Shown: positions 2,221 through 35,163 of the stretch, one piece after another | How positions within the stretch are numbered: position 1 is the first letter of the stretch | How the letters are laid out: every line of letters begins with the position of its first letter | Source: Telopea speciosissima | Taxonomy: Eukaryota; Streptophyta; Magnoliopsida; Proteales; Proteaceae | NCBI RefSeq assembly: GCF_018873765.1 | Contig: NC_057926.1 | Span: 49,715,043 to 49,779,042, forward strand | Direction: 5' to 3' | DNA length: 64,000 nt | The notes under the pieces: generated by a model | Told to the model about the DNA's origin: nothing | What the model saw: only the letters and a program-made list of their open reading frames with translations | Databases searched by the model: none | Position numbers and translations under genes: made by a program

Positions 2221-4350
2221 CGATTGGCTACCTCCACCTGTACTACCAGGGCATCTTCATGCGGGAAGTTTAGTCCTTCCAGGTCTTCATCCGAGAAGGA
2301 GATCACCGCCTCGATCTCGGCTATCTTCTTTGGGCTTCTCGCCACTCCCACGAACCTGGCATGAGCTTTAGCTTTTCTCGGTGGACTCTTGCCCTGGTCC
2401 TCCAAGTATGGTGAGGATAGGAGGTCCCTTGGTGCCACTAGGTTCTGTGGCATCTCTCCGCTCTTACGGGCGGTCTCTCTCTCGACTGTTCTTCTTTCTT
2501 CTCGTCTCGGCTCCACTCTGTCTCCGTCGCGACCTCTATCTCCTTGGCCCGAGCGGTTGTCACGTCTCCCCTTCACATACTTGTTCAAGCTTCTGCTTTT
2601 ACCAGTTGTTCTATCTCTCTCTTCAATTGATAGCACTCCTCGTGTCGTGCCCATTCTCTTTGTGGAAGAGACAATATTTGTTAGGGTTTCGCTTCTGCGC
2701 GGCTGCTAGCATGGGTCGTGGCCAATGGAGTAGGTCACGGTCCTGGATCTGCATGAGTATCGGGACTGGTGGTGTTCGATGGTGTGAACTCGGGGTGCTT
2801 GCCCTCTCGCTTCTCTCGGGCGGCGGTCTGTCCTCCTAGATGGGCGGTCGCTCTTCTCTTGTCGGCGCTCTGTCCTCGACCTCTTACTCTCGTTGCGGTC
2901 ATCAGTGCTGACCTCTTGTTGTCGTGGCTTGGCCTCGATTATTTTTGTTCTAGCTTGTAGTACCTCGGCCATATTTGCAAACTCGTTGCACCGCTCCAGG
3001 AGTTCTTTCATAGTCCTGGTCTCGTGACGTGCCAGGTCCTTGATCAAGTCCAGGTCCCTAATACCTCTGCTAGGGCTGCATGCGTGTCCGGTCATCCAAG
3101 TCTCGAACCTCCAAGGACTCCTTGGTGAACTGTAACGTATTCCCTGAGAGATTCCCCAGGGTTCGTACCACGTTTAGTAGATTGACGGTGGTCTTCTTAC
3201 GCTTGACGTTGCTTTGGAAACGGGTGACGAACTGTCGCATAGCTCTGCGAATGAGCATATAGATCTCGGTCGTAGCACGGAGAACCATGATGTGGCTGCT
3301 CCTTGAGGGACGCGGGGAATGCCCGACAGGATACCACATCCGACCCCATACATGCGTCATCATGCCATTAAAGTAGTTGATGTGGTCATTAGGGTCAAGT
3401 GGTACCATTGTAGAGTTCAAAGGTGGGTAGTCGAAACCTGGAAGGTAGTGTGGCGACATGATCTCTGCGAGAAGGGGTGTTGTCCGGGTATGGAATGTGT
3501 CTCGCCTTTGGTCTCGCTTCTTCAACCCTTCCAGACTTCTCATCCAGGTCGCGGAGTCTTTGATCGAGCTCCTCGTCCCTTGTCCGCCCCCACGCCTAGC
3601 CGGACGTTCGCTGCGACCCCGTTCACGCTCTCTCCTGGATGTGCCCTCCCGCCTTGAGTGTTGGCGGGATGGTGAATGGTCATGCCGTGATGAACCCTGT
3701 CGTGAAGGTGAGGGCTTTCTTCTCTCGTAGGTTCGGCTTCGTCGTGGTATGTGACTTTCTCCCGGTGAGTCCGTCAAACACGGACCTCCGGACCGATCTC
3801 TGCGGGCTAGACACCTCGCCTTGGGTGTTGGCGTCCTCCCACGTTCGACCGTGGGGAGAGGTCTCTTGTTCTCTCGGGATGCTGGGAAGGCTCCCGCTGC
3901 GGAGTGGGGGTTGCACGTCGCGCAAGTCTCTCGATCTCGCGCCCGGGAGATGATCTCCTAGGGTTTGGCTCTTGTTGAGGTATGGACTCCACCCTTCAGC
4001 TTGGTGAAGTCCTCCGACGGTGAGATGTCGCACGCTGCGTCCAGGTATTCTCGAAAGAGTCATTGTTCATCGAGGATCTGCTCGTTGCGGTTGTTGATCG
4101 ACCCACGTTGGCCTGGAGCATTGGGGTCGTGTCACCTCCACCACCACATCGTTGGCCTCGCCATTGTTGGGCTCGGCGATCACGAATCTGGTCATTAAGG
4201 GGGATCTCCTCCTCCGAGAGGGACATGGTCCTGGTCGTTGGCTCGCTGGCGAGAGCACTGCGGGGTGGTGATCCATTCCTTGCTCCGTTGTTGGTGGTGG
4301 TAGTCTTCCTTCGTGCCATTGAACGAGTATGGAAGCGAGCTAGTAGCTGT
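2200..4350 (-). pseudogene. gypsy gag region, degenerate
   Basis: A 235-codon stretch (3070-3777) has a very basic Arg/Ser/Pro-rich N-terminus followed by a gag core with PLLAEIMSPHYLPGFDYPP, LDPNDHINYFNGMM and a TVNLLNVVRTLGNLSGNTLQF block, typical of Tat/RIRE2-type gag. A second charged piece (2706-3095) and an Arg/Glu-rich tail (2199-2654) complete the region. Frameshifts divide it. The long readings on the opposite strand are shadows of this GC-rich, arginine-coding DNA. Confidence 0.75.
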
Positions 4351-18663: not shown

Positions 18664-21600
18664 CTATTCAACATGGTCCCGAAAACGGATGATTTTGTTG
18701 ATGAAAGGCCTCTCATGGTGATATCTATTTGCAAATAGTTCAATCAATTAATTCCAACGCATAACAAAAACACAAAGAATGGCTTAAAAGAGATCAATGA
18801 AATGTAACAGAGATGAAAATCCCAAAAAGAATTAGTTTCTAAAGGGATGAGGATACTCCACAGTTGTTCTTTAGCTGTTGTATAGCTACTATAGGAAATC
18901 AAGAAACAAGCATTTAGGCAGAAATTAATGATAACTAATTCTGCATCTCGTCCCCAAAATGCTTTATCCCTTCCTTTCATCATAGCTACATGAATCACAA
19001 CAGGTATGACAACTTTAGAGGATTCTCGTCCATCTTGAATTTGAATGGAAGTACAAGAGAGTACATACATTACAATGGTGGATATACATAAGCATGTCAA
19101 TCCAAAGGATGAATGAATGAACATGGTTGGCCAGAAATTTTCCCGATCTAGAAATATTCGCTCAGATATGAGAGTAGCAACACCTGAAAGAAGCAAAACT
19201 GTCCAACCAGATGGCAAGCACTGATTGAATGCGAATAAGCTAGAATCCTGTGGAAGGTAACAAATAAATCTGAAATAAGAACCAATTCAATATCAAAAGT
19301 TCAATAAACCATTCACGATCTCATGTTGAAAGCCCAGCAGACTTATATTGAAAGAATGTGACGGAGAAATTTTTTGCACCTGGAAATAATGCATAATGAA
19401 TACGGCAGAGTAAAAAATCCTGAAAATCATATCTTTTCATTGCAGTCAAGAAAGAAGCCAATGCTTTACTTTCAACCTGTTTTTTCCCAAAGAAAATAAG
19501 CCAATTTTTCAAAACTCAATAAAACATTAATAATCACACATTCTTTCATTAGTGTAACAATTGTATGGGAGGCCACATCACTATGGGTATTTCAGTCTCA
19601 TTTCTCAATAAATGAATAAGGGAATGTACCAACCAAACTTTGAAATACACAATCAATATAGAACCAATGAAATGAGACACAGAATTGCATAACCCCAAGA
19701 ATTAAAACCAATTTATTCTTTTGAACCAATGGAAAAGGCTGGGCATGCTGTCAGAGTGCCCAGCAGTCATCCTCTTTCCTCCCCCTTTGGAAAAGAACTC
19801 CTTGCCCTCCTCTGTCTAGCCCTGTGATGGTGCATGCCGCTAGCTTACCGAAAGCTGGCGGCATGCCCAACCGTCTCCTCCCCCAACCCCCCAACCCCCC
19901 CCCCCACACAAAAAAAAAAAAAAAAGGCTGAATAATTTCTTCGAAAAACCACATCCTTTTTGTGAGACTATTGAACAAATGGAGGAAAAGGAGAAGGGAG
20001 GGACCAAATCTTAGAAAGGATACTTAATGAATTAGCCGCAATTAACCCAACTGCACCAGCTGAGCGTATGAGCAGGACATTCAGTACAATGTAAATCCCT
20101 GAGAATATAAATAAGGAGCCGTTTGAATGCTTTAGTTGTTCCTCATTTGCCACTGCATGTAGAAACGCTTCAGATGTTCCTGAAGCATAATCAAGGGAGT
20201 CAATATTATTATTGGAGAAATGCATTTGTCATCATTTAGTACATGGAAGAAAGAAAATTCTCATCCTCATGATCACCGATATAATTTTCCAATTGCAGCA
20301 TTCCATGATATATTGAAAGATCAAAGGTGACTTACCATTCATAGCTAAAACAATGACATAAAGACAATAGTAACGGAGTGCAGTTGGAGCTTCTCCATCG
20401 CTCCACTTCCTACCATACAAGACTCTAATAAGAGCATAAGAGTAGCTTGGACCAAATGCCATAACAACCAGACCTACAGAAAATAAAGTCAAAATTTAAC
20501 CATCATATGGCTGTTGCAATAACCCCGGAATTCATTTACTCACACAGCTTTAAAAAAAATGTTTTTACTGAAAGTGTAAATAAGAAGCTAGGTTGTGCAA
20601 GCATACACAAAGTCACACATGTATTGTTTACATTCCATGTTCAATAATAGGAACAAAAAGGTCTTCACTTCATATCACACAAAATTCGGCAACTCTGCAC
20701 TCATTTTTTTCTTTACTGACTATGCACTAAACCTGAAAACTTTTATCGGTTTGTGGGCTCACATTTGGTAGAAACCCATCAAATGTCCTGAGGTGTGTTG
20801 CAGACTACCAGGGGGGAGGGTGGAAGAATATGAGTTCCTTTTGTGATATCACACCTGATCCATAATTTCCCAAGTTTATGTTACTTCAGAAATCCAGCTT
20901 GAAGTTCTTAACATACCTAGATTCTGAATGGGTTATTGATTTCATAGATTGGGGTTTCTTAACCAGTTCTCTGTTTCTCAATGTTCTCTCTTGAGAAGCA
21001 AGAAATTATTTGTCACATTCCAGCCAAAACTAAGAATGAACGTAGCACTCATATTGCAAAGATCTATAGAGATGGTTTGTCACCAGGCTTCTGGCAGATT
21101 CCAAAACTTATTAGGTGTTGACATAGATGCTATTCAGAAAGCATCAAACTTTCATGAGAACAATAAAACAGAGATTGCTATTATGGGCATTACAAATAAA
21201 TGGAATACCTAGTCTTCCATATCAAGCTCCATTTAGCCAATTTCTTTTCCAAATCACACTATAATGTTTATGTATTCCACATCATGCTGCATTTCTCAGA
21301 ACCTGAACTTGGATGGTGTGTGTGTGTGGCTTCTGGCAGATTCCAAAACTTATTAGGTGTTGACATAGATGCTATTCAGAAAGCATCAATCTTTCATGAG
21401 AATAATAAAACAGAGATTGCTATTACGAACATTACAAATAACTGGAATGATTAGTCTTCCATATCAAGCTCCATTTACCCAATTTCTTTTCCAAATCACA
21501 CTATAATGTTTATGTATTCCACATCATGCTGAATTTCTCAGAACCTGAACTTGGATGGTGTGTGTGTGTGCAATAAATTTGTTCTGGTTATAGATCTAGG

Positions 21601-24600
21601 CTTCTCATAGCTAGTGAGGTTAAGTATTTCGAGTTCTACCATTATAAGTTGCCATGGTAAGTTGGCAACATTAGTCAAAGAGTACGCCACCCTGTCGCAC
21701 AGCGCACGTCACCCCTGTGCCCTGACACAGGGGGGCGCGAAATGACCGCAGCACCCCCTCGAACCCCGGACATGACTAGGGGTGCGGTGGTCATTTTGCA
21801 TGCCCCTGTGTTAGGGCGCAGGGGTGGCATGTCTGGTGTGACCGGGTGGCGTTCTTTCTCCCTTAAACAACTTACTTTAAACTAATTGAGTTCAAATAAA
21901 TAAGAAGAAATACATACCAATTAAAAGAACAAGTTTTAGTGCATCAGAAAGGGAACTCCCTATTTTCATGTTTCTTTGAGGAGATTGCCCTGCCAAGAAA
22001 GAACAAACATTGAGTCCCTTAAAAGGATTGATCTTACATCTATACAGTGGCACAAAATGTATTTACATACATCACACATGAAGCTAGTAATGAAGTAAAG
22101 AGTCCGGAACCTCTGCCATACTGCACACCAGAGGCCACGTGTGCCAGCGTGGCACACATGACACACATGGCCTCTGCTGTGCCGCAGGGTGTGCAGTAGG
22201 ATGTGCACCGCACACCCTGCAGTACGGCAGAGGATTTTTATTATGAAGTAAAACTCAACAACCCTTTTGGACAATCAAACTACAAAGTAGCAAAAGAGGT
22301 TGGAAGGAGAAAATATGACATCAAAAGCCATCCCAATTCAACAAAGCCTTATCTCAACCATCTGGAGGTTAACTCATACAAACCCTGTTCCACTACCCAC
22401 TCTATCTAGGCCTATATCTTCTGTTAAATCATGAGCACCCACGTATATGCTAACTAGTTTAGCCCAATTAAACTTTTGAGATTTCCCTTCTTCTTCTAAC
22501 ACCCCCTCAACTTAGACCATCACTTCCAAAACTTGATTATTCAAACAAAAAAAACCAGGAAAATCAACATGGAATTTGAGAGAAAATAGGAATGTGGTAG
22601 GGAAAACAAATTGAGGAACACCATATATCAAACCAGAAGTTAGGAACAGTCCAGACAGAATTTAAATAAGAGCAAATAGTGGGTATCGATAATCTGGAAA
22701 ACAGGGTAGATTTAGGTATTATGGGAGAAAACTGATATCTATCAAGATATAGATCAGATAGAGACACCAAATCTGGATCAAGTTATCTTCAAAGTGTGAT
22801 CCATCAACAAGAATTGCCGGACTTTTACACTGATTTAGATGGTTCAACTATTGTAATCAGATTAAATGAAAACAGAGTACGGAATGGAAAGGTCCTAACA
22901 GTGAAGCGTCACCCCAATTTGAGTGATCCGATTCATATGGGAATAGCAGCAGAAAAATAGATAAAATCAGGAAACAGCAAATTTCTGCTGTACCCCGTTT
23001 TCCTAATTTATTTTTCTAAGCTTCAACTAATCATGTTTTCTGATTCAGAGATAATAGAACTAACCTGTGGGAGAGAGAACAGACCTGGAAAAAGAAGATT
23101 TGATAACCAAGAGTAGCAGGACAGAAACATAACAAACATCCAGGCCATGACCACCTTGGGATTAGCTCTACAAACACAACACTCGAGCAACCCAAACTCA
23201 AAATTGAATTCTCAATTCAATATCAAAATTGTCGGTTACATCCCTAAGGGTCCTCCCTTCGTAAAGAATTATAATTTTAACTTAGCTGCTAACTCAACTC
23301 TCCAAACGATACTAAAGTTAGACTGTCGAAGTAAGTTTCCTGATTGAACCTGGACTCAACAAAAGATATTTAACTAATCTCAGATAGAACCATATGCCCA
23401 AATTTAAATGAGGACATTACATAATATTTCTTATAGACACAATACCAATCATATATAACAAAGACCAAACTTAGAAAAAAGACTCTAATTAAGCCTAAAT
23501 CTCTTTAAATGAGGCTCAATCCCATGGCTTTTAAATCCAGGCCTCTTATAATGTAGAATACAAAGCACACAAGGTCCACTGCACAACAGCACTTGCTTGC
23601 CTGCATCACCAGTGCAGTTATTGATCTTTGTTGTACATGTCCAAACCAATTTGTTCACCCCTCTCACCATCCACATGCCCAAGGTTTCTGCTAATAAATC
23701 TATTACCAATTCTATCATTTCTAGTCCTGTCAACATCCATTCATTGGTCTCCACACTTAAATTTCAGCCAAAAGCAATTCTTGCTGCCTCTGGGTGGAAG
23801 GAACTTTTAAGTCTTTCAGTCGGCATTGAACTGAACAGGATCCACAAACAGGGCTTGTACAATTAAGAGTTGCCAACTCCCCCCCTCCTCCCCTCCAACG
23901 GGTTTCATTAAGATAAAAAAGACTCCCGCCACTGCGGCGTCTGAGGAGGGTCATAATGTACGCAGCCACCCCTGCTTTCGCAAAGAGGCTGTTTCCAGAC
24001 TCGAACCCGTGACCACTTGGTCACAATGGAGCAACCTTACCATTGCAACAGGTTTCATTAAGATAGATTCCAAAAATGTGCACTCTCGATGAAAGCAGAA
24101 AAAGTGACTGACAGACCATTCAACATTTCCCTTTAAAGGGATTGCTGGGATGTAATACAAAGACGTAAAATATATGCAGCTTCTCAGACCACTTCAATCA
24201 GAAGTTTCTGAAAGGTTATTTTAACATTTCAGCTATGGAAATTGGGAGGTCTACTGATGAAGATCCATCACCAAACTGGGCTTGTTTGCTTAGGAATAAG
24301 TCTAGGGTTGTATACATGTTGGGCCTTTGATCCTACGGCTTTTCAATGTAAAAGGTTGCATACAGGATTAGCTAGTTTGTTTCTTAGTTTATTTTTAAGT
24401 TGTTTTGGGTTAGTTCAATTGACCCGGTTCTATGTGGTTCAATTTAAGTTGCAAGTATTTGTTATTAAGTGTTTTAGTTAGGCTGGATAGGATTCTATTA
24501 GTCCAGTCCTGTTTTGAGTCTGTTTCATTTAATATTTCACTTTCCTAGTCAATTTACTATTTGGTTAAGGATTGAGTTAGGCCTTTCCTTTTTAGTGGTT

Positions 24601-27600
24601 GAGTCTATTTTTGAGTTTTCTATACAAGGTTGTAAAGGGGGAAAGCATTGTACACGAATTTGAAAATTAAAGGAGTTGCTTTTGCTGCTCTCTTCTCCAT
24701 TGAAGAACCCCTTGTGTGTGATCAAGGTTTAGGTTGGTGTTTGATCCAATCGAACCACCTTGCGGTGTGAAGCCTGGGTGTTTAATTTCTGTTTGTTCTT
24801 GCTATTCCATCTTTCTTTCCTTCCATTGATTCAAGTATTGATGTGATGAATTTCCTACAATTCATCTTCTAGTAACTATTGTTCTAGTTCAGAAATTCTG
24901 GTTCTAGTTGAGATTCATACGCATCACTTTTTTTGAGATTAAGCAAACCAGCTGTTAGATCTGACTGAAATTTGGATTGAATCTTAAGAACCCTAACTTG
25001 AGAACTCAATTAAGTTTCACCCAATTCTGACCAGCCGATTGACTGCTGGAGTGAAATCTCTGTTTTACCCTTTTGCCTTGTTAAAACCCTTTTTCAGATT
25101 TGATTTTATTTCTGATTTGCTGAACCTAATAAACTACTGTTTATAGGTAATTTTCATGTCTGAAAACCTGCAATCTTTCTTCAACCTCTGAACCCTATTC
25201 CAGTAACCTATTTACCATAATACCCTCACTCCTACCCCAATAAGGAATCAACCAATAAACCTATTTTCTGTCCCCTTATTAGGCTGCAACTTTCAACAGC
25301 CTCTCCTTTCCCAACTTCTAAGTTTTAAACCATCCTTCGATAAAAGATCTTGTTTGGCTACTGGTTTGAGCAATCAAATCCAGTACTTCAATATATACTA
25401 ATATTCTAACAGACATAACATTGCAGGTCACACTCATTCTCTTAAAAGGCTAAAACATCACAGCTTAACAGCCTATCCAATAAGCAATAAGTTGTAAACT
25501 GCAAAATTGATTGGAGAAGCAGAGCAGGGAAGAGAAAGTAAGGAACAAAAACATGTAACTCTTGATTACATGAAGAAAGATGCTTGTTAAATTTATGTAT
25601 ATTCTTGTATTTGGCAAATCTTTTAACCACCAGCTTATACACACACACAGGAGAATCATAAGACCTAGTTCTCTTACATTATAAGGTCACCTCTAAATGC
25701 AAGTCATAATATAAAAACATGCCTATGTGGTCAGCAACAAAACAAAAGAAATAAGGACCACAATTCTAATTTAATAATTCACCAAAGTGAAAGGATCCCT
25801 GATAATACAATCGATAGTAGAAATAAACTATGGCAGGTCATTTGCACTAAAGAACAATCCGGCACAACCAGGAATGAGAAGAAATAAACCTGACGCAAAC
25901 CTTGCAAATGTAGTGTAAGAACTTTCTTCAAAAGGAAGAAACACCAATCTCACAACTAAACTACCTGAAAAAAGAAATGAAAAGACTCATCTAAGTACAC
26001 TAACGAAACAAAAAAGGTAGGGAATGTAAATGATGCTTAATAGGATCCATTTCAAGTAAATTTCAGTAGGTGAAAGGAAAATTCCTTCCATTAAGTCAAT
26101 AGGATTTAGAGTGTATATTAACCTAATTTGTCTACTAGTCCATACACAGCCTGGTTGTAGGGTGTATCCAACCATACAAGTATCATCTTTTCTCCTTCTT
26201 GTAGGAGCAACTTCCAGAAGGATTGACCAGTAAACAATATACACATATTTTTAAGCTGCTGATCGTAATCCGTCATCTTTCCTTTTCTGCATTCAGAATA
26301 TATGCAAGTTGATTATATATATAAAGAAGGGGGAGGGGGGAATGCATGTGCAAATGAAAACAACAGGAATACCGAATACCCTTAAAAGTCTAACTTCAGA
26401 GGTGCACAATAAAAGAATGAAATGAGAAATAAATTAATCAAAACGGAGTAATAAGGTTATCAAATAAATATAATTTAAGGAAAATATCTAAAAGAGCCCC
26501 TCAAGGATCAGCTTTAAGCCCATACTTGTTTACGCTTATCATGGATGATTTAACTAGAGACATTCAAGATGAGGCTCCTTGGTGGATGCTTTTTGCTGAT
26601 GATTTTGTTTTGGTGGATGATACAAAAGCAGGGATTAACGCCAAGATGGAGTTATGGATATCAACCTTGGAATCAAAAGGTTTTAAGATAGCCGGAGTAT
26701 GTGGTGTGTAACTTTGGTTACACTAGGACGGATGATGAGGTGGTGAAAATTGATGAGAGGGAGATTCCATAAAGTGATTATTTTAGATATCTGACCTCAA
26801 TCATAATAAAGAAGGTGATATAGAGGATAATGTTTCATAGAGAATTAAAATAGGATGGATGAAGTGAAGAGATGCGTCCGCACTCTGTAGTGTTGTGTGA
26901 TAGGCTTATTCTTTTAAAACTTAAATGAAAATTTTATTGGACAGTCATACGACCGTCTATGATGTATGGTGTGGAATGTTGGGCCATTAAGAAGCATCAT
27001 ATAGATAAACTCAATGTAGCAAAGATGAGGATGTTGAGATGGATGAGTGGCAAAACTAAGAAGGATAAAGTAAGGAATGATCATATTAGAGCTGATTTGG
27101 GAGTAACTCCGATACATGACAAGCTACGAGAAGTCATTTGAGGTGGCATGGCCATGTTCAACGGAGGCCTTTGGATGCTCCAGTACGGAGGAGTGATTTG
27201 ATTTGGATTGAAGAAACTAAAAGAGCCAGAGGCAGACCTTAAATGACCTTAGAAGAAGTGGTGACGAAAGACATGCATAGCTTAGGCCTTGTATCAAGTA
27301 TGACCTCGAATAGAGCTGATTGGAGGGCAAAGATCCATGTAGCGGACCCCATTTAGTTGAGATAAGGCTGAGTTGTTGTCATTGTTGTAGTATCTAGAAA
27401 AGCCCCTCACAAAAAGGATCTCATCCAAAATAAGCATTAATCACCTTTAAATATGAAATAAATAGAAGACAAAATCCTATTTACCACATCCCTACAGTAG
27501 CCGTCATTTGCTAACATAAGCAAACTGAATCAGACAAACATATTCTCAAAAAAAGAATTTTAGGTATCTTTTTCACTTGACCAGTCTAACAACTAGACAA

Positions 27601-30600
27601 TATTTGGAAGAGAGAAAGATTTCCAACAAGCGTATTTGTGAAACTTGAAATACAAATTTAGGGGTATTTTATCATTTATAAACATTTCAGCAATCAGAGA
27701 GCTGTGAGAACTAAGAAAGAATGAAAATAGGTTGTCTTCATGGCTTTATCAGATATAAGAATTACAAACTGGACTTTTTGGATAATATTCTTTGTTTTGA
27801 GCAGGCATTTAAAATTTAAGAGGGTCTGAAAATGGGGGAGGGAGAAGTCTAAGAGAATAATGGGACTTCAAAAGAGAAGGTAGGGGCATAAAGAATAGGA
27901 TGTACTAATAGCACATACATCATGGTCAATTTTTTACTTGGAATAATATCTGCTTAGCAGGATGGCATTGGGGAACGTTAAATGCTTAGAGATACACAGG
28001 ACTTTCAGGGGTCTCCACCTCGTTTTACTCTTTGATGGTCAATGTAATAATAAGATGAGAGATTTTTAAAATAAAAAAGTAAAGGAACTAAGACTGTTAC
28101 CAAACTTGAAGCTTTTATCTGCTTTTGAGCTATGTTAATCTTTTGTGCCTTTTATTTTCTTCATTATAAACTAAAGCGCCATCATGTAATGGATGGCCGA
28201 GCTAAAAGATCCACATCATTATTGAAACGAGTAGTTTATAAATAGATATATACCTAAAGGGGAAAAGGTCAGAACTTCTCACCAGGCGAGTGAGAAGTTT
28301 ATCTACTTTTGACTGATGTTAATCGTATGTGCCTTTTATTTTCTTCATTATAAACTAAAGCATCATCATGTATTGGATGGTCAAGCTAAAAGATCCACAT
28401 TGTTATTGAAACGAGTAGTTTATAAATAGATATATACCTAAAGGGGAAAAGGTCAGAACTTCTCACCAGGCGAGTGAGAAAAAAATAGCCCCAATATCCT
28501 AAGAACAAGCAAGCTCCATATGCAGTCTGTGATAATGCAAATACAATAACTTTTTCCTGTAAAAAGATGGATTACCATTGTGAAACAGAAGCTTTATATA
28601 AATGAGGTCAATAGGCCATCAGAAGAAAATTCAAACTGTTCCAACCAACCTACATAAAAACAGATTAACAACAAGGTCTACCAACAACCTGAAAGGAAAT
28701 ATTCCTCTGGATCATGGGGTTTATGAATTCCTCTAGCTGACGCTGCAATTGAAGGAGCTGGTCTTTATCATGCAAGGACCAATGAGTTCATATTGGGACA
28801 ATAAATCCACTGTTAGTATGGGCTACAACCCTGTGGAACATGGCACTACTTAATCAAGGAGAAGCTGCATTAAAGACATGTTAGACCCCACATGTGAAGA
28901 TTACAGATCAGCGCAAACAACCGATTGGTCGGTTGGTTGGTAGCTTGCCAGTTGGAGTGCATGCCCCCCAAGAGGTCAAGGGATTGACTCTTTTGGTTTG
29001 CATATTCTGCCAAAAAAAGGCACCCCCTCCCCCCTTGGTAGTTGTAGGATTCTGTAGGCTTGTCTTAGCCTTTCCTTTGTAGCTTAGATTAGGATAGACC
29101 CCCCAAAAAAAAGGTTACAGATCAGCAGTTCAATATCTTAACAGAACAAATATATAATTCACAATTTCATGGTATCTTAGGCAAGCTGATGTAGATCAAG
29201 GGAGGTTTCAGCACAAGTATTCACGTCAGAACAAGCCCAAATCCTAGTCTTATGGGTTAAATAAGTAGCCTAATGGGTTATATGGGCCATGGCCTTTGTA
29301 TTTTTATGTTTTTCTATTGTAATGGGCCTATTTTGAAAGCCCATATATGAAGGATAAGTGGCCCATACGAATTTAACTAGTTAGTTGTATCTAGTCCTCT
29401 AAAGTTGTGAAGTCTTTGGGATATCAATAGTTTCTTAGGTATGTCAATAGGTTAGTTTCATTGTTAGTTGTGAAAGACCTTGAAAATGTAAAGTTCATTA
29501 AATATCTTGAAAATTCCCAATGTAAATCCTTGGAAATGTAAAGGCCATTAAGTCTAGGAGAAAGTCGCAATGAGAGGCTACTGACTAGAACCCTCCCTCT
29601 ATAAAAGGGCTGCTTGTAAGCATTTTGAAAAAAGTTTTTAAGAAATTTGAATGAAATTGAGTTATACAATTCTTCTCTGAAAAATAGAGCTGTAGTGAGA
29701 TTTTGTTCCTGGTGAGAGGCTGGGGTGGTTGGAAACGTGCTATGGATGTTGAAATGGATGCTCTGTTGGATCATCGGATTTGGACTCTTACTGACTTACC
29801 CTCAGGGAAGAAGCTTGTGAGGTGTCGTTGGGTGTACACAGTTAAATATCTTCCCGATGGTTCAGTTGAGCAACGCAAAGCTCGGTTCGTTGTAAAAGGC
29901 TTTACTCAGACCTATAGTATCGATTATTTTAAGACCACCTCTCCAGTGGTCTACTTAACTAGGTAATATTCAAACAAAGTTTGATTGCAATCCAACGGTC
30001 AGATTTTCAGATATTGAAGAATCCTACTAGAACTAGGATTTTAAAGAAGAAAATCCAAAACATTGATTAAGCAGAAATAATATACAAAATCAAAATAAGA
30101 ATGACTTAGTTCAGAAAATTCAGGTTTTGAATTGAATAAGGAAACTTGAAGATCAATTTCAACATAGAGTTCTAGAACAGAGTTTGAAATCAAACAAGAA
30201 GCTGAATTGATAGAAAAGTCTTCAAGGTCTAACCAGGAAATCAATTCATCAACTTAAGATGAAATTAAGCAGAAAATAGAAATTGAGACATTCCAGCAAA
30301 CAAGTAAATCAAAGAGTGCATAATTTAGGAATTTCTCACCTGAAACTTGAAAGAGAGTGGATAGAAGAAAGGATAGTAGAACCAGTTTCTCCTCCTAAAC
30401 CGAAGGTCTGAAATCCACCAGCAGCTCACCCAGAATCCCCTAGATTCTGCTACTATATCCACAGCAGTCTCACTCAGAATCCACTGAACACCACTCCTGA
30501 ATCCACAGAAGCACAGGTCTGAAATCCACAGAATCAGCAATGCAACAGCTTCTATTCACTAGAAAATTTGATTGGTAGAGCTAAAGCATAGTTGTCAAGG

Positions 30601-33600
30601 AGTCGCCGCCTAGGCGTCCAGGCGCCTTGGATCGCCTAGATGCCATGACAACTATGTTGTAGCCCATTACGTTTATTATAGAATTAAGTAAAGCTGTCTC
30701 AGACTCAGCACAGGAAAATCCTAATCCAATTCTGACCAGAAAAGTGAAAACAAATCGCACACTGAACCCCTCCCCATCAACCAGCTGCTTTGGAGGAGAC
30801 CTAAACTGACAAGGACTTTAAAAAATAAAAGAAACTTACTTAAAATAGGACTGAATTAATTGTTTCCTAATCCAGCCTGAACTAGAACAGAGAATAACAA
30901 TAAAAATGGGAAAATAGAACTCAAAAACAAGCTAGAAATTTGAATACAACAGGAACCATCCCAGTATCCAATAATAGTACAAATCAGATTGTAAAGGAAT
31001 TATGAGTTTAAAAAAAGAGAGGGTTCTCTGAGCAAGCAGCATAGAGGAACGCACCACTGAGGTGCAGCAAAATAGTATCGCACATTAGAGGGAAACAATG
31101 TCATTTCATATTTGGATGGAGAGGAATTTTAGGAGATGGACTTCCAAATCTAGATCTTTCGACTTGATTTGGAAGGACATCTCCTTCGAAGTTTCCTCTA
31201 AGATCAGCACTATTCCTCACCGGTCCCTCATGGATACCCCAAGGAACAGGCACATTGTTGTTCCCTTGGGTCTGGATAGTAGTATGTTGCAGTCCCCTTC
31301 TAGTTTAAGGAGGACTTGACTCTGGTTTTCTTTCTTCCCCCCCCCCCTCTTTTCTCCTTCCGGCCCCCTCCTGGGGTTTGGTAATACTTATTTATTCACC
31401 AAAAAAAATGTCATTTTATGTGAAGAGGAGAGAGATAGACACAGAGATGCTAGCGTACCCTACCCCAGCGGCTCAAAAAAAGCATTTCCCTTGAAAGAAA
31501 GGCTGCAGATTCTGTTGCTCATCTATCATATCAATCCATAATACCAGCACATAAAAAAGATTGATTACCAAATGCTTCGAGCTTACCATGTTAGTCTGCT
31601 TGGCAATGAGGAAGTAGAGTGTCATGCAACGCGAAAGAGTTGCCACAGTTTCAACAATTAGACGCAATTCAAGGAGTAGCAAATTCTGTGAAAGAATGTA
31701 TAAGGGTTCTGCCAGTGGCTCTAACATGCATGCAAATCCTGCCATATAAAATCTTAGATCTCATTTAGCAAGTTTGGACCTCAGGAAAAAAAATTACAAT
31801 AGTTCCCCAGAATGTACCAAAGTCCATAACGAGAAGAGGAGGGGCATAACACAATAGGACGGGGAAATTAGGAAGTACCATGAATCAAGATAGCTTGTCC
31901 GTAGGAATCAGTGAAGTTTAGTGCCTGCCACCAGAAGACAGATATGCATGCTACAAATGTAAAAAGAATTCCTATAGGGAAAGTCATCCATGCTACTTTC
32001 AATAGCTTTGCAGCATTTACTTCCATTTGTGCACTATCACTGAAAGAGAAGAGTAGTATCTTTTAAATGGTATATAATAGTACACAAATGGATAAATTTA
32101 TGAATATTTTATTTTAAAAAATGTCAGTAGTTTGCATAAAGGGAATAGCAGAGCAAATGATACAGATGCAGCGTAGGACAGTACAAAGTACAAACCGCCC
32201 AATGTCTCCTACCTAGCAAATATGTTAGAATAAGAATCAATTGACCCAGACACTCAAAAACATTAGCACTGTCAAAATTCTCATATGGCGATAAAAAGGT
32301 AAAAAAAATGGTCCAGAAAAGGTCTCTTTGTCCAGTATCTATGATCAAACAACAAGGTTTAATGTGACCTAAGAGCCAATCCTATCGGACCAGTCAAGTG
32401 GTAAACTGGTAGTTCATCTGTACCACAAATGATTCCCATTCAATTATGGGTTTTAGTAGGTGTAAAAATCAGCCAGTCGACTACCCTAAAATTGAAATAT
32501 CCAGCTGCAAAGAAAGGATAACTTGATGCCCTCTGAACTTATCATTAATGTGCCACATGAAGATTCACTAACACAAATGATGTATAACATGGTGAACCAG
32601 TAAAAAAGTAATTGATTATTAGCATATCAAAGCCATGTGAGCACTCCTTCAAATGGCATGACACTACCTATAAAATATTGATGTCTCTATATGCTTCTGC
32701 CAGCAGTGGTACACAATGTGCCAGGGAAAAAAAAGAACCAAGGACGGCAACTACACTACCTATGTTTGAGAATTTTAATTTTTGTTTGCATAGAGGTACC
32801 TGCACTTTAGATAAAGAACTAGGCATTATAATCTTTCCAAACCATAATTACAAAACTATAAAGGAAAAACAAATTTGTTCTTAAGGATTGGCTTTAAGAG
32901 AAGGAATCTCGGGAGACTTTTATTAATAGTATCTTCATCATCCTTTCCCTCCTGTCTTCATTATCATCTCCCTTTATTCATTCCAATGAGGTCCACTAGT
33001 TCATCTTTTATTTCTGTTCACAATGAAGGTTGTTTTTTCTAGTGTTAATATCTAATTTTTATGATAATTTAATATCTCTGTATTCCCACGCCATGATTTC
33101 CAGACATTAATTTGACGACACCGATACTAGGTACTTAAACTATGTACATGGGTAACACAGAAGCAGACAATTAAAACGTGGCAATTTATTATGAGATTGG
33201 ATTTATCATTGATGAGTTACACAATGGTCTCCTAATGGCAAGGGTTGCACAAATTTCCAAATCTATACAGAAGGAACTCAAGTTACTACCTGGCCAATTA
33301 AACTTTAATAATATTCTTTTTTCGGGTTTTCATGCTTGTTCACTAATTTCTAAACCGTTCACCCTGTTTCTAGTTTACTAAAAATCTAGCAGCTTTTACA
33401 TGTTAAATTTTAAACTTGAATCCTATAAGTTGGACTAAGTGCAATAAGTAGACCACTAGCAACCAACATCGATGATGATAAGGTGGGATATATGAATGCA
33501 TTGAGAAAAGAAATAAATTAAGTAAATGAACAAAACCAAAAGCAATAGCTCAGAAGTAAATATAAGAAACATGTCTGAACCAAAACTGTCAGAAAACCAA

Positions 33601-34567
33601 CAAGCATAAATAAATGGCATTACAATCGAAAAAGAAGATATAAATAATCACATAAATATATGCAGAAAGAAATTACCATCTAATATCTGCCCTCATGCAG
33701 GCTCACCGAAAGCCCTCCCTACTTAGAAACAAGATAGACGTGACAAAAAGATGAAATTGTACTGCATAAAGCTGTCATTATAAAGAAATGATTTAAGAAC
33801 CCAAAGCAAGTCCTAACTCATTAGGACCCAAATTAACAGGAGACAGAAAGCAAGAGAATCAATAGAAATGATGATTTAAGGTAAAGAAGTCAGAAGTACG
33901 CATCAGAGTATTCCATAGAACAATGGTAACCAATCAAAAAACTCCAACATTCATATAACGAAGCCAGGGCCAGTTCAATAAATTAGATAACTTTACCTCA
34001 AGACTATTAAAAAAATGAATACAAGGGCTCATGTTAGGGTTCCATCAATAAGAACAAAAAACTTACAAAGGGAGGGGAGGGGAAGTAGCCAATGAATAAG
34101 AATGCATGTCCCCTGTTTAGTTACGGTGAATATTACCCAAATGGACCACTGATATTCACTTTGAGCATTTATCAACACTGAGCGACAGATCAGGCTACTT
34201 CCCGGTTCCCACAGTGCAAAAACTGAAGAACTCCATATTTTGCTCAAACTGAATTACTGAGCTGTAATTGTACTTTCAAAACAACAAAGAGAGAAGAAAA
34301 AAAAAGATACTGAATTTGTACTGGTAGATGCATTGCTGTGATAGAACTAAATCAACCAAATCACTAATAAACAGAACTGAGAAGTAACAGAGGTTTTTTT
34401 CTTTTTTTCCTACCGCGTAGTCCTCTTCCGTTAGGTGTCTCACGATCCACGTATTGAAAATAAAAGGGATTCCTCTCGATAAGAACTGTGTGGCTGAGTT
34501 CCCAAACATGACAGAAAAAGATTAAACCTTGTGATTAGTAAAAGAAAGTTTTGAAATCATGCAAAAG

Positions 34568-34598
<31 letters not shown>

Positions 34599-34699
34599 AG
34601 ATTAATGCGAAACTAACCCAACAGATACTTGAAAGTCCGGGCAAGTGTGGTACCATCACCATTTCCGGGCTTTGAAGGTCTTAGAGATTCGTTCGACAT
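18664..34699 (-). CDS. RFT1: RFT1-like protein, dolichol-oligosaccharide pathway, 14 exons placed
   Basis: RFT1 is an ER multispanning protein needed for making the lipid-linked Man5GlcNAc2 donor of N-glycosylation; whether it is the flippase itself is disputed. Exons (minus): 34618-34699, 34414-34493, 33677-33771, 31879-32039, 31587-31738, 28467-28556, 26123-26286, 25890-25964, 21918-21989, 20336-20473, 20024-20179, 19380-19432, 19069-19247, 18664-18724. All joins are GT...AG and phase-consistent except exon 6 to 7. Recognised words, in order: [123 protein letters not shown] and C-terminal [12 protein letters not shown]. About 518 codons are found, near the family's usual length. Two defects are visible: an in-frame TGA at codon 77 (33703-33705), and a 3n+2 nt coding segment missing between exons 6 and 7. 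It may be a damaged allele, a recent pseudogene, or rescued by splicing. Confidence 0.9.
20790..21085. other. RFT1 intron 9 sequence, unremarkable
   Basis: Between exon 10 and exon 9 of RFT1. I see no coding or repeat signal apart from what is listed separately. Confidence 0.4.
21086..21570. repeat. 242-bp tandem duplication in an RFT1 intron
   Basis: GGCTTCTGGCAGATTCC starts at 21086 and again at 21328, and the two units remain about 97 percent alike to a (GT)n run at their ends (GATGGTGTGTGTGTG near 21313 and 21555). The GT run at the junction suggests slippage or unequal exchange as the cause. Confidence 0.9.
21681..21855. repeat. MITE family M1, copy A (partner at 63531)
   Basis: The ends GTACGCCACCCTGTCGCACA and TGTGACCGGGTGGCGTTC are inverted repeats, and internally GCACGTCACCCCTGTGCCC pairs with GGGCGCAGGGGTGGCATG. 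The whole 175 bases fold back. It is GC-rich within an AT-rich intron, so it stands out. The copy at 63531-63704 has the same ends and length. Confidence 0.82.
22107..22236. repeat. Fold-back MITE, 'CCTCTGCC...GGCAGAGG'
   Basis: ACCTCTGCCATACTGCACACC at the left end is matched by GGTGTGC...GTACGGCAGAGG at the right end, with inner GGCCACGTGTGCCAGCG and CATGACACACATGGCC also complementary. A related longer element occurs at 43832-43980. Confidence 0.78.
22240..23895. other. RFT1 intron 8 sequence without recognised feature
   Basis: This part of the large intron between exon 9 and exon 8 shows no conserved coding words on either strand. Short open readings (23147-23347, 23485-23754) have no domain features. 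Confidence 0.4.
23916..24050 (-). mobile_element. Au-like SINE with target-site duplication
   Basis: On the minus strand it starts GCAATGGTAAGGTTGCTCC, has a tRNA-type B box GGGTTCGAGTC, then the GGAAACAGCCTC, AGGGGTGGCTGCGTACATT and GACCCTCCTCAGACGCCGCAGTGG words typical of the plant Au SINE family. It is flanked by GGTTTCATTAAGATA on both sides (23901-23915 and 24051-24065), a clear target-site duplication. The last ~25 bases of the family consensus are missing. Confidence 0.9.
24190..25170 (+). repeat. LTR-like retroelement remnant in RFT1 intron
   Basis: The stretch has features of a plant LTR and adjoining leader: a long T-rich part, GAAAGCATTGTACACGAATT, AAATTAAAGGAGTTGC, then TCCATTGAAGAACCCCTTG and CGAACCACCTTGCGGTGTG. 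No coding domain is visible. Boundaries and a second LTR were not found. Confidence 0.35.
26486..27410 (+). mobile_element. 5'-truncated RTE-type LINE with target-site duplication
   Basis: It enters in the RT domain: [34 protein letters not shown] (catalytic ADD), LESKGFKI. The C-terminal part continues with [18 protein letters not shown] and [11 protein letters not shown]. The 3' UTR ends CCCATTTAGTTGAGATAAGG then CTGAGTTGTTGTCATTGTTG, the usual RTE tail. Flanks TATCTAAAAGAGCCCCTCA (left) and TATCTAGAAAAGCCCCTCA (right, about 27390-27408) form a slightly diverged target-site duplication, partly shared with the element's own PQG codons. Frameshifts make it inactive. It sits in the RFT1 intron between exons 7 and 6. 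Confidence 0.87.
28113..28484. repeat. ~186-bp tandem duplication covering the RFT1 exon 6 splice donor
   Basis: The unit running from TATCTGCTTTTGAGC (about 28115) to CACCAGGCGAGTGAGAAG is repeated from TATCTACTTTTGACTG (about 28301) to CACCAGGCGAGTGAGAA at 28481. It includes the words TTATAAACTAAAGC and AACGAGTAGTTTATAAATAG in both units. Each unit carries the last exon 6 codons (ACT CGC CTG) plus the donor GTGAGAAG, so a second identical donor lies 186 nt inside the intron. Confidence 0.9.
28895..29170. other. RFT1 intron 5 sequence, no feature recognised
   Basis: Poly(A)/C-rich pieces occur but no family was recognised. Short readings are chance. Confidence 0.3.
29182..29700 (+). repeat. 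LTR-like block upstream of copia RT fragment
   Basis: Contains GGGTTATATGGGCCATGGCC, a TATA box (CTCTATAAAAGGGC at 29597-29610) and a downstream T-rich leader, consistent with an LTR. A related block at 58889-59140 shares its first part. The copia RT fragment follows at once, implying an internal deletion. Confidence 0.5.
29700..29966 (+). pseudogene. Ty1/copia reverse transcriptase N-terminal fragment
   Basis: The reading contains W...[53 protein letters not shown] and [11 protein letters not shown], the first conserved blocks of copia RT. The catalytic YVDD part is missing, as are integrase and RNase H. It lies within an RFT1 intron. Confidence 0.9.
29970..31000. repeat. RFT1 intron 5, mixed retroelement-like sequence
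   Basis: Words such as CAATCCAACGGTCAGATTTT, and repeated 'GAAATCCACAGAATC'-type blocks around 30410-30540, suggest LTR-derived DNA. No coding domain. The fold-back element 30587-30656 lies inside it. Confidence 0.3.
30587..30656. repeat. Small fold-back element, CATAGTTGTCA...TGACAACTATG, copy 1
   Basis: The ends CATAGTTGTCAAGG and CCATGACAACTATG are inverted repeats, and the centre is GCCTAGGCG palindromic DNA. Two longer relatives lie at 38854-38975 and 50469-50587. Confidence 0.85.
31010..31490. repeat. MITE split by a LINE insertion
   Basis: The left part (31010-31106) and right part (31407-31490) together are the reverse complement of the element at 18246-18397, with words such as GGGTACGCTAGC, AGAGAGATAGACAC and GTTCTCTGAGC. 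The interruption is the L1 fragment 31107-31406. Confidence 0.78.
31107..31406 (+). mobile_element. Short 5'-truncated L1-type LINE with 10-bp target-site duplication
   Basis: The reading [19 protein letters not shown], then [13 protein letters not shown] is the last coding part of plant L1 elements lacking RNase H. It is followed by a T/C-rich 3' UTR ending GGTAATACTTATTTATTCACC and a poly(A). AATGTCATTT occurs directly before (31097-31106) and after (31407-31416), giving exact borders. Confidence 0.92.
32040..33676. other. RFT1 intron 3, no feature recognised
   Basis: This 1.6 kb AT-rich intron between exons 4 and 3 shows no transposon domain and no conserved exon words. Confidence 0.5.
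33677..33771 (-). CDS. RFT1: RFT1 exon 3 with in-frame TGA and overlapping new splice donor
   Basis: The exon reads [20 protein letters not shown], then FR, stop, ACMRADIR, joining in phase to exon 4. The stop TGA (33703-33705) stands where the family has Arg, most simply from CGA by one CpG transition. The same change turns CGGCGAGC into CGGTGAGC. This has a perfect GTGAG donor core at 33706-33702, better than the normal donor GTAATT at 33676. Use of the new donor would remove 33677-33706 (30 nt, 10 codons including the stop) and join CG to the T of exon 4, so the frame is kept. Confidence 0.85.
34567..34596. repeat. (TA)n microsatellite in RFT1 intron 1
   Basis: About 15 uninterrupted TA units lie 20 bases inside the first intron, close to the exon 1 donor. 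Likely length-polymorphic. Confidence 0.95.
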
Positions 34700-34971
34700 C
34701 TCGAATTGTTTAGAAACCTTCTCCCTCTGCAATGGCTGGCGATCAAAACCTTAAATTGAAAGCAACCCATAAACAGACAACCATTACATGCTCCCCAACT
34801 CCCTGATGGATCGACAGTTATTCTCCCGGGAAAAACCAGGGATAATTAATATAAAGGAATTTATTTTTGAGTCGTTTTGTAATTTCTTTTGGTTCCCCTT
34901 CCCTACTGTATTCAGCTCCCTCCCTCTGTTCTGTGACTGTCGAACTCATTGGGCGCTAGGAAAGTTGATAG

Positions 34972-35163
34972 AATTCTCTAATAGGGAAAAAATTCTCTGT
35001 CCGGGAGTGTGGCCTATACCAGCACTCCCATGAGTCTATCTCTCTCCTCCTTATGTGAAAAAACACATCTATCACCTTGTTTAAAGGAGAAGAGATATAG
35101 ACTTATGGGAATGCTGGCGTAGGCCACACTCCCATACAGAAAACTGCTTCCCTAAACAATCTG
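34972..35163. repeat. MITE with ~75-bp inverted arms
   Basis: The left arm (GGGAGTGTGGCCTATACCAG, then CACTCCCATGAGTCTAT and CTCTCTCCTCCTT) is complementary to the right arm (AAGGAGAAGAGATATAGAC, then TTATGGGAATGCTGGCGTAG and GCCACACTCCC). A fragment of the same family is at 35470-35515. It lies about 270 bases upstream of the RFT1 start codon. Confidence 0.85.

Follow-up and report, generated by a model that had tools for sequence, protein, structure and literature searches.

A single CpG transition in one of two RFT1 genes of Telopea speciosissima gives rise to a premature stop codon and a candidate in-frame splice donor

One of the two RFT1 genes in the Telopea speciosissima assembly carries a premature TGA at codon 77, where its partner has CGA, and alignment of the two copies indicates that one CpG C-to-T change produced both this stop and a putative GTGAGC splice donor at 33706, use of which would remove the stop in frame. 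We consider that this copy is probably a recently arisen null in a duplicated gene pair, and that its transcripts would go mostly to decay, perhaps with a minor leak through the created donor.

The window, by which we mean the whole 64,000-nt stretch of DNA that was analysed, lies at C11:49715043-49779042 in an assembly of 822.9 Mb and 1287 contigs, in which C1 is 87.8 Mb and C11 is 57.3 Mb long. Its RFT1 gene is located on the minus strand (34699-18664) and comprises 14 exons with 1587 coding nt and 528 codons, in a frame that is open throughout except for a single premature TGA at 33705-33703 in exon 3. RFT1 (PF04506) is an ER membrane protein of N-glycosylation. The match to this Pfam profile spans positions 4-510 of 512, with scores of 459 bits for the window copy (with X at the stop) and 464.5 bits for the C1 copy, above the curated cut-off of 23.8. 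All 13 introns of the gene model are GT-AG, although partly by construction, as exon borders were placed by inspection with patterns that required GT and AG. On the minus strand, exon 3 is bordered by the acceptor ...GACAG, followed by CTTTAT, and by the donor at TAGATG, followed by GTAATT. The features of the gene are as follows.

34618..34699, minus strand: RFT1 exon 1 (ATG at 34699)
34414..34493, minus strand: RFT1 exon 2
33677..33771, minus strand: RFT1 exon 3, 95 nt, containing the premature stop
33703..33705, minus strand: premature TGA, codon 77, where the C1 copy has CGA
33701..33706, minus strand: candidate created donor GTGAGC (the exon end would be 33707)
33677..33706, minus strand: 30-nt segment that would be lost if the created donor were used, codons 77-86, the stop then ACMRADIRC
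33671..33676, minus strand: normal intron 3 donor GTAATT, the same in the C1 copy
31879..32039, minus strand: RFT1 exon 4 (acceptor AG at 32041-32040, usable by both donors)
31587..31738, minus strand: RFT1 exon 5
28438..28556, minus strand: RFT1 exon 6
26123..26286, minus strand: RFT1 exon 7
25890..25964, minus strand: RFT1 exon 8
21918..21989, minus strand: RFT1 exon 9
20336..20473, minus strand: RFT1 exon 10
20024..20179, minus strand: RFT1 exon 11
19380..19432, minus strand: RFT1 exon 12
19069..19247, minus strand: RFT1 exon 13
18664..18724, minus strand: RFT1 exon 14, carrying the normal stop

A TAA flagged in the Pfam match at 26118-26288 was rejected as a second stop in the window copy: exon 7 ends at 26123 and is followed by GTTAAT, the source of this TAA, which is the non-coding start of intron 7. 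Among solved structures, a 136-aa stretch used as the query returned no RFT1 relatives at an E value of 0.001, and the seven structure hits obtained up to E = 1 with the C1 protein were spike-protein chains, evidently by chance. Elsewhere in the window, long open reading frames at 1070-1969 and 3070-3957 on the minus strand resemble, by eye, a gag-pol-like LTR retrotransposon, and G+C is higher there.

The second RFT1 gene is located on C1 (C1:69128086 to 69158675), with a whole 528-codon frame and 14 exon lengths identical to those of the window copy. Scanning the assembly with the Pfam profile, with all 15 candidates scored, yielded nine exon matches at two RFT1 loci; exon 3 together with its flanking DNA, used as a nucleotide query, matched three times, at the same two loci. 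Neither search revealed a third RFT1 gene or a second haplotype of the window locus in the assembly, and no long intron-less match of the kind expected for a processed copy was among the matches listed. The original prediction had named, as the outcome that would speak against it, a second intact copy combined with silence of the window copy, and the first part of this combination, an intact second gene, is now established. The alignable introns of the two copies are approximately 89% identical, and intron 8 occupies approximately 11.9 kb in the C1 copy (C1:69141164-69153081) compared with 3.9 kb in the window copy. Similarity between the copies ends approximately 150-180 nt upstream of the ATG (about 34850-34880) and, on the 3′ side, approximately 508 nt past the stop codon (18156); the promoters of the C11 and C1 copies may differ. 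The upstream limit fell at 34847 in two of the comparisons and at 34882 in a third, whose query stopped at 34900; a fourth comparison gave no similarity from 34850 upwards. When the rest of the window was compared with C1:69040001-69280000 at the nucleotide level, with repeats unmasked, no collinear gene besides RFT1 was seen, the matches considered in the flanks (14 of 36 on one side and 13 of 13 on the other) being short or scattered and repeat-like. The corrected 4DTv of the pair is 0.069 (14 transversions at 217 sites), which is close to the value of about 0.10 at which the Macadamia duplication peaks (PMC8906886).

Repeats were also observed upstream of the genes. A palindromic MITE-like repeat is present at window positions 34983-35157, lying 284-458 nt 5′ of the RFT1 ATG, and when the 1401-nt sequence upstream of RFT1 was used as a query, the non-self matches listed among the best 40 of 4296 candidates were all on this repeat. 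On C1, a dispersed repeat (C1:69126500-69127142) is found approximately 0.9-1.6 kb upstream of the RFT1 copy and in at least 39 other places, as judged from the 40 of 1051 candidates that were scored.

At codon 77 the C1 copy reads CGGCGAGCATGC and the window copy CGGTGAGCCTGC, which bears out the proposal in the original prediction that the ancestral codon was CGA. The same base change gives the stop and the splice site, as seen when CGGCGAGC in the C1 copy is compared with CGGTGAGC in the window copy, and this alignment likewise supports the proposal that a single C-to-T change at a CpG site makes both. Splicing at the created donor would join ...TTTCG to the first base of exon 4, the T at 32039, giving CGT (Arg) and removing exactly 30 nt; the computed join yields, as anticipated, a 518-aa product in which the frame is kept and there are zero internal stops. 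The C1 coding sequence allows 222 single-base nonsense changes, of which 28 make a new GT and seven (3.2%) make an in-frame donor that removes their own stop. Only two of the 222 are CpG transitions (codons 77 and 479), and both make such a donor because CGA after G becomes GTGA, exon phase then deciding the outcome. The coincidence of stop and donor is modest: a nonsense change picked at random has a chance of approximately 3%, and for the most mutable changes the result is no surprise.

Methylated CpG sites are where a base-call error might be suspected, and a collapsed assembly might have chosen one allele of a heterozygous site; we regard either origin of the T, which would then be absent from the plant or confined to one haplotype, as unlikely. 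The CpG context is consistent with such an origin, as are the recovery of one copy of the locus, with no second haplotype, in the assembly search and a published heterozygosity of 0.76% for Telopea speciosissima (PMC13080361). However, the adjoining bases align without difficulty, and at the next codon the two copies show a synonymous difference (GCA, GCC), so that they are not confused with each other at this point.

It is distinctly unlikely, in our estimation, that the created donor serves as the main donor, with the stop cut out and selection keeping a 518-aa RFT1 that lacks ten codons. Such a product would be in frame and free of the stop, with the remaining frame intact, and the pairing of the donors with U1 argues in the same direction: with the U1 5′ end, the duplex energy is -8.3 kcal/mol for the created donor versus -5.1 for the normal donor, and, set against the modelled donors of the two genes, 26 in number, the created donor beats 24 and the normal donor nine. 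GTGAGC also ranks ninth among human hexamers, with a strength of 0.653 (PMC12480690). Base preference points the other way. A weight matrix of our own, derived from the 24 donors other than those of exon 3, which are paired between the two copies, gives the created donor a score of 1.38 versus 2.96 for the normal donor (beating 4/26 and 6/26, respectively), and a plant donor matrix gives 1.03 versus 3.53 (3/26 and 17/26). The gene contains 860 GT sites, of which 12 do as well as the created donor and 109 as well as the normal donor in U1 energy, whereas by the plant matrix 78 are as good as the created donor and 12 as good as the normal one. Plant introns are typically T-rich, and the 50 nt downstream of the normal donor are 78% A+T and 58% T, compared with 60% A+T and 34% T downstream of the created donor. 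Moreover, a published survey reports coupling between +3G and +5G in the donors of 12 animals and 0 plants, and assigns 0.27 and 0.21 bits to positions +5 and +6 of plant donors (PMC10599564). The original prediction that the created donor is the stronger of the two is therefore not clearly upheld, with U1 pairing in its favour and both base-preference matrices and the T content against it. The view, implicit in that prediction, that the normal donor GTAATT is not strong agrees with the U1 and own-matrix rankings, though not with the plant matrix. The stronger appearance of GTGAGC rests on an animal-type consensus and need not hold in a plant.

The cost of the deletion also weighs against the created donor as the main donor, and the presence of an intact C1 copy would make such a rescue unnecessary. 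By reading of the sequence, codons 77-86 cover the tail of the second membrane helix plus the loop that follows, and their removal lowers the Pfam score by 18.3 bits (from 459.0 to 440.7). We take human R67 and C70 to correspond to plant R76 and C79. Under this matching, the 518-aa product would keep the R67 counterpart (CGT) and lose the C70 counterpart. R67C and C70R are among the human RFT1 disease changes tabulated in the literature (PMC11365447); by our matching, the deletion adjoins counterparts of human disease sites. Nevertheless, the 518-aa protein could retain partial function. That the mutation erased itself, the stop becoming intron as it arose and the shortened RFT1 being selected, possibly with a gain of altered function, strikes us as improbable. 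Rescue by exon skipping was considered and rejected: exon 3 alone is 95 nt and out of frame, and to skip it with the frame preserved would cost at the least 112 codons if exons 2-4 were left out together, or 136 codons in the case of exons 3-5.

The remainder of the window copy shows little sign of decay. The RFT1 pair has a Ks of 0.125 and a Ka of 0.031, a ratio of 0.25, with 36 amino-acid differences, the stop being one among them, and 0 indels in 1587 coding nt. In the introns of the pair, 135 gap events were counted in 7020 bp, a figure limited to the stretches that BLAST aligned (17 blocks, with a small amount of flank included). If half of the gap events are assigned to each lineage, a copy that had escaped selection for 20% of the time that has passed since the duplication would be expected to have accumulated 3.1 coding indels, and the probability of none is 0.047; Ka sets a looser bound, giving a selection-free fraction that runs from approximately 0 to 0.42 as the assumed constrained ratio is lowered from 0.25 to 0.05. 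With X at codon 77 in both proteins, the window copy scores 459.0 bits and the C1 copy 463.1 bits against the Pfam profile, and the difference of 4.1 bits is the net difference of two lineages, not the loss of the window copy alone; polarising the two copies would require an outgroup. By comparison, three simulated proteins carrying random replacements in the C1 protein changed by -19.5 and -19.2 bits (18 changes) and by -38.8 bits (35 changes). Relaxed constraint in the window copy, in the form of coding indels, a Ka/Ks near 1 or a falling profile score, was not observed. Because there is no coding indel, Ka/Ks is 0.25 and the Pfam score is barely lowered, we infer that the stop is young or bypassed, and the same evidence sustains the earlier view that the gene is otherwise well kept and so not an old pseudogene. 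The frame appears to have been constrained until recently, or to be so still through the created donor, and the sequence fits both. An old RFT1 pseudogene can hardly be entertained, since the disabling stop, although early in the gene (TGA, codon 77), is the one lesion in a copy with these signs of constraint.

We therefore return to a young null in a duplicated gene as the preferred reading. A recent CpG C-to-T nonsense change would have hit codon 77 in one of two RFT1 duplicates, and the null would be tolerated because the C1 copy supplies RFT1. Most transcripts of the window copy would probably be spliced at the normal donor, keeping the stop and entering nonsense-mediated decay; we count the unchanged normal donor and the T-rich intron that follows it in favour of normal splicing. 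With normal splicing, 1295 nt separate the premature stop from the last exon junction downstream, a typical target of nonsense-mediated decay. A minority of transcripts may use the GTGAGC donor to yield the 518-aa protein without codons 77-86. U1 pairing, which favours the created donor, argues against this reading, and its recency is deduced from the lack of further lesions, which a working created donor would account for as well.

By analogy with CFTR E831X, in which a nonsense change generates the splice site that removes its own stop, there an acceptor, the RFT1 change would belong to a known kind. One base change in E831X likewise makes a stop and a usable splice site that removes the stop in frame, but the site is a NAGNAG acceptor, the segment is three nucleotides and the effect was proven in patient RNA and minigenes (PMC2951375), whereas the RFT1 site is a donor predicted from the sequence and would involve 30 nt. 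CFTR c.523A>G resembles the RFT1 change in that a base change within the exon brings an in-frame donor farther upstream into use, there trimming 57 nt from the exon end, and differs in that the change is a predicted missense rather than a nonsense change and was proven by transcript sequencing (PMC7605713). Self-rescue may occur at the RFT1 locus, yet it is not the first expectation in a plant whose second RFT1 gene is intact. If the created donor is used, the locus would offer a naturally occurring plant example of nonsense self-removal by splicing, with the intact twin as an internal control, and the conversion of CGA preceded by G into GTGA on mutation to TGA could buffer genes with the right exon phase; if it is unused, the locus represents the young loss of one RFT1 duplicate. 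As in a young pseudogene or null of a duplicated gene, there is a single disabling change, an intact partner and a frame otherwise constrained; unlike the usual examples, the disabling change in RFT1 also creates a candidate in-frame donor.
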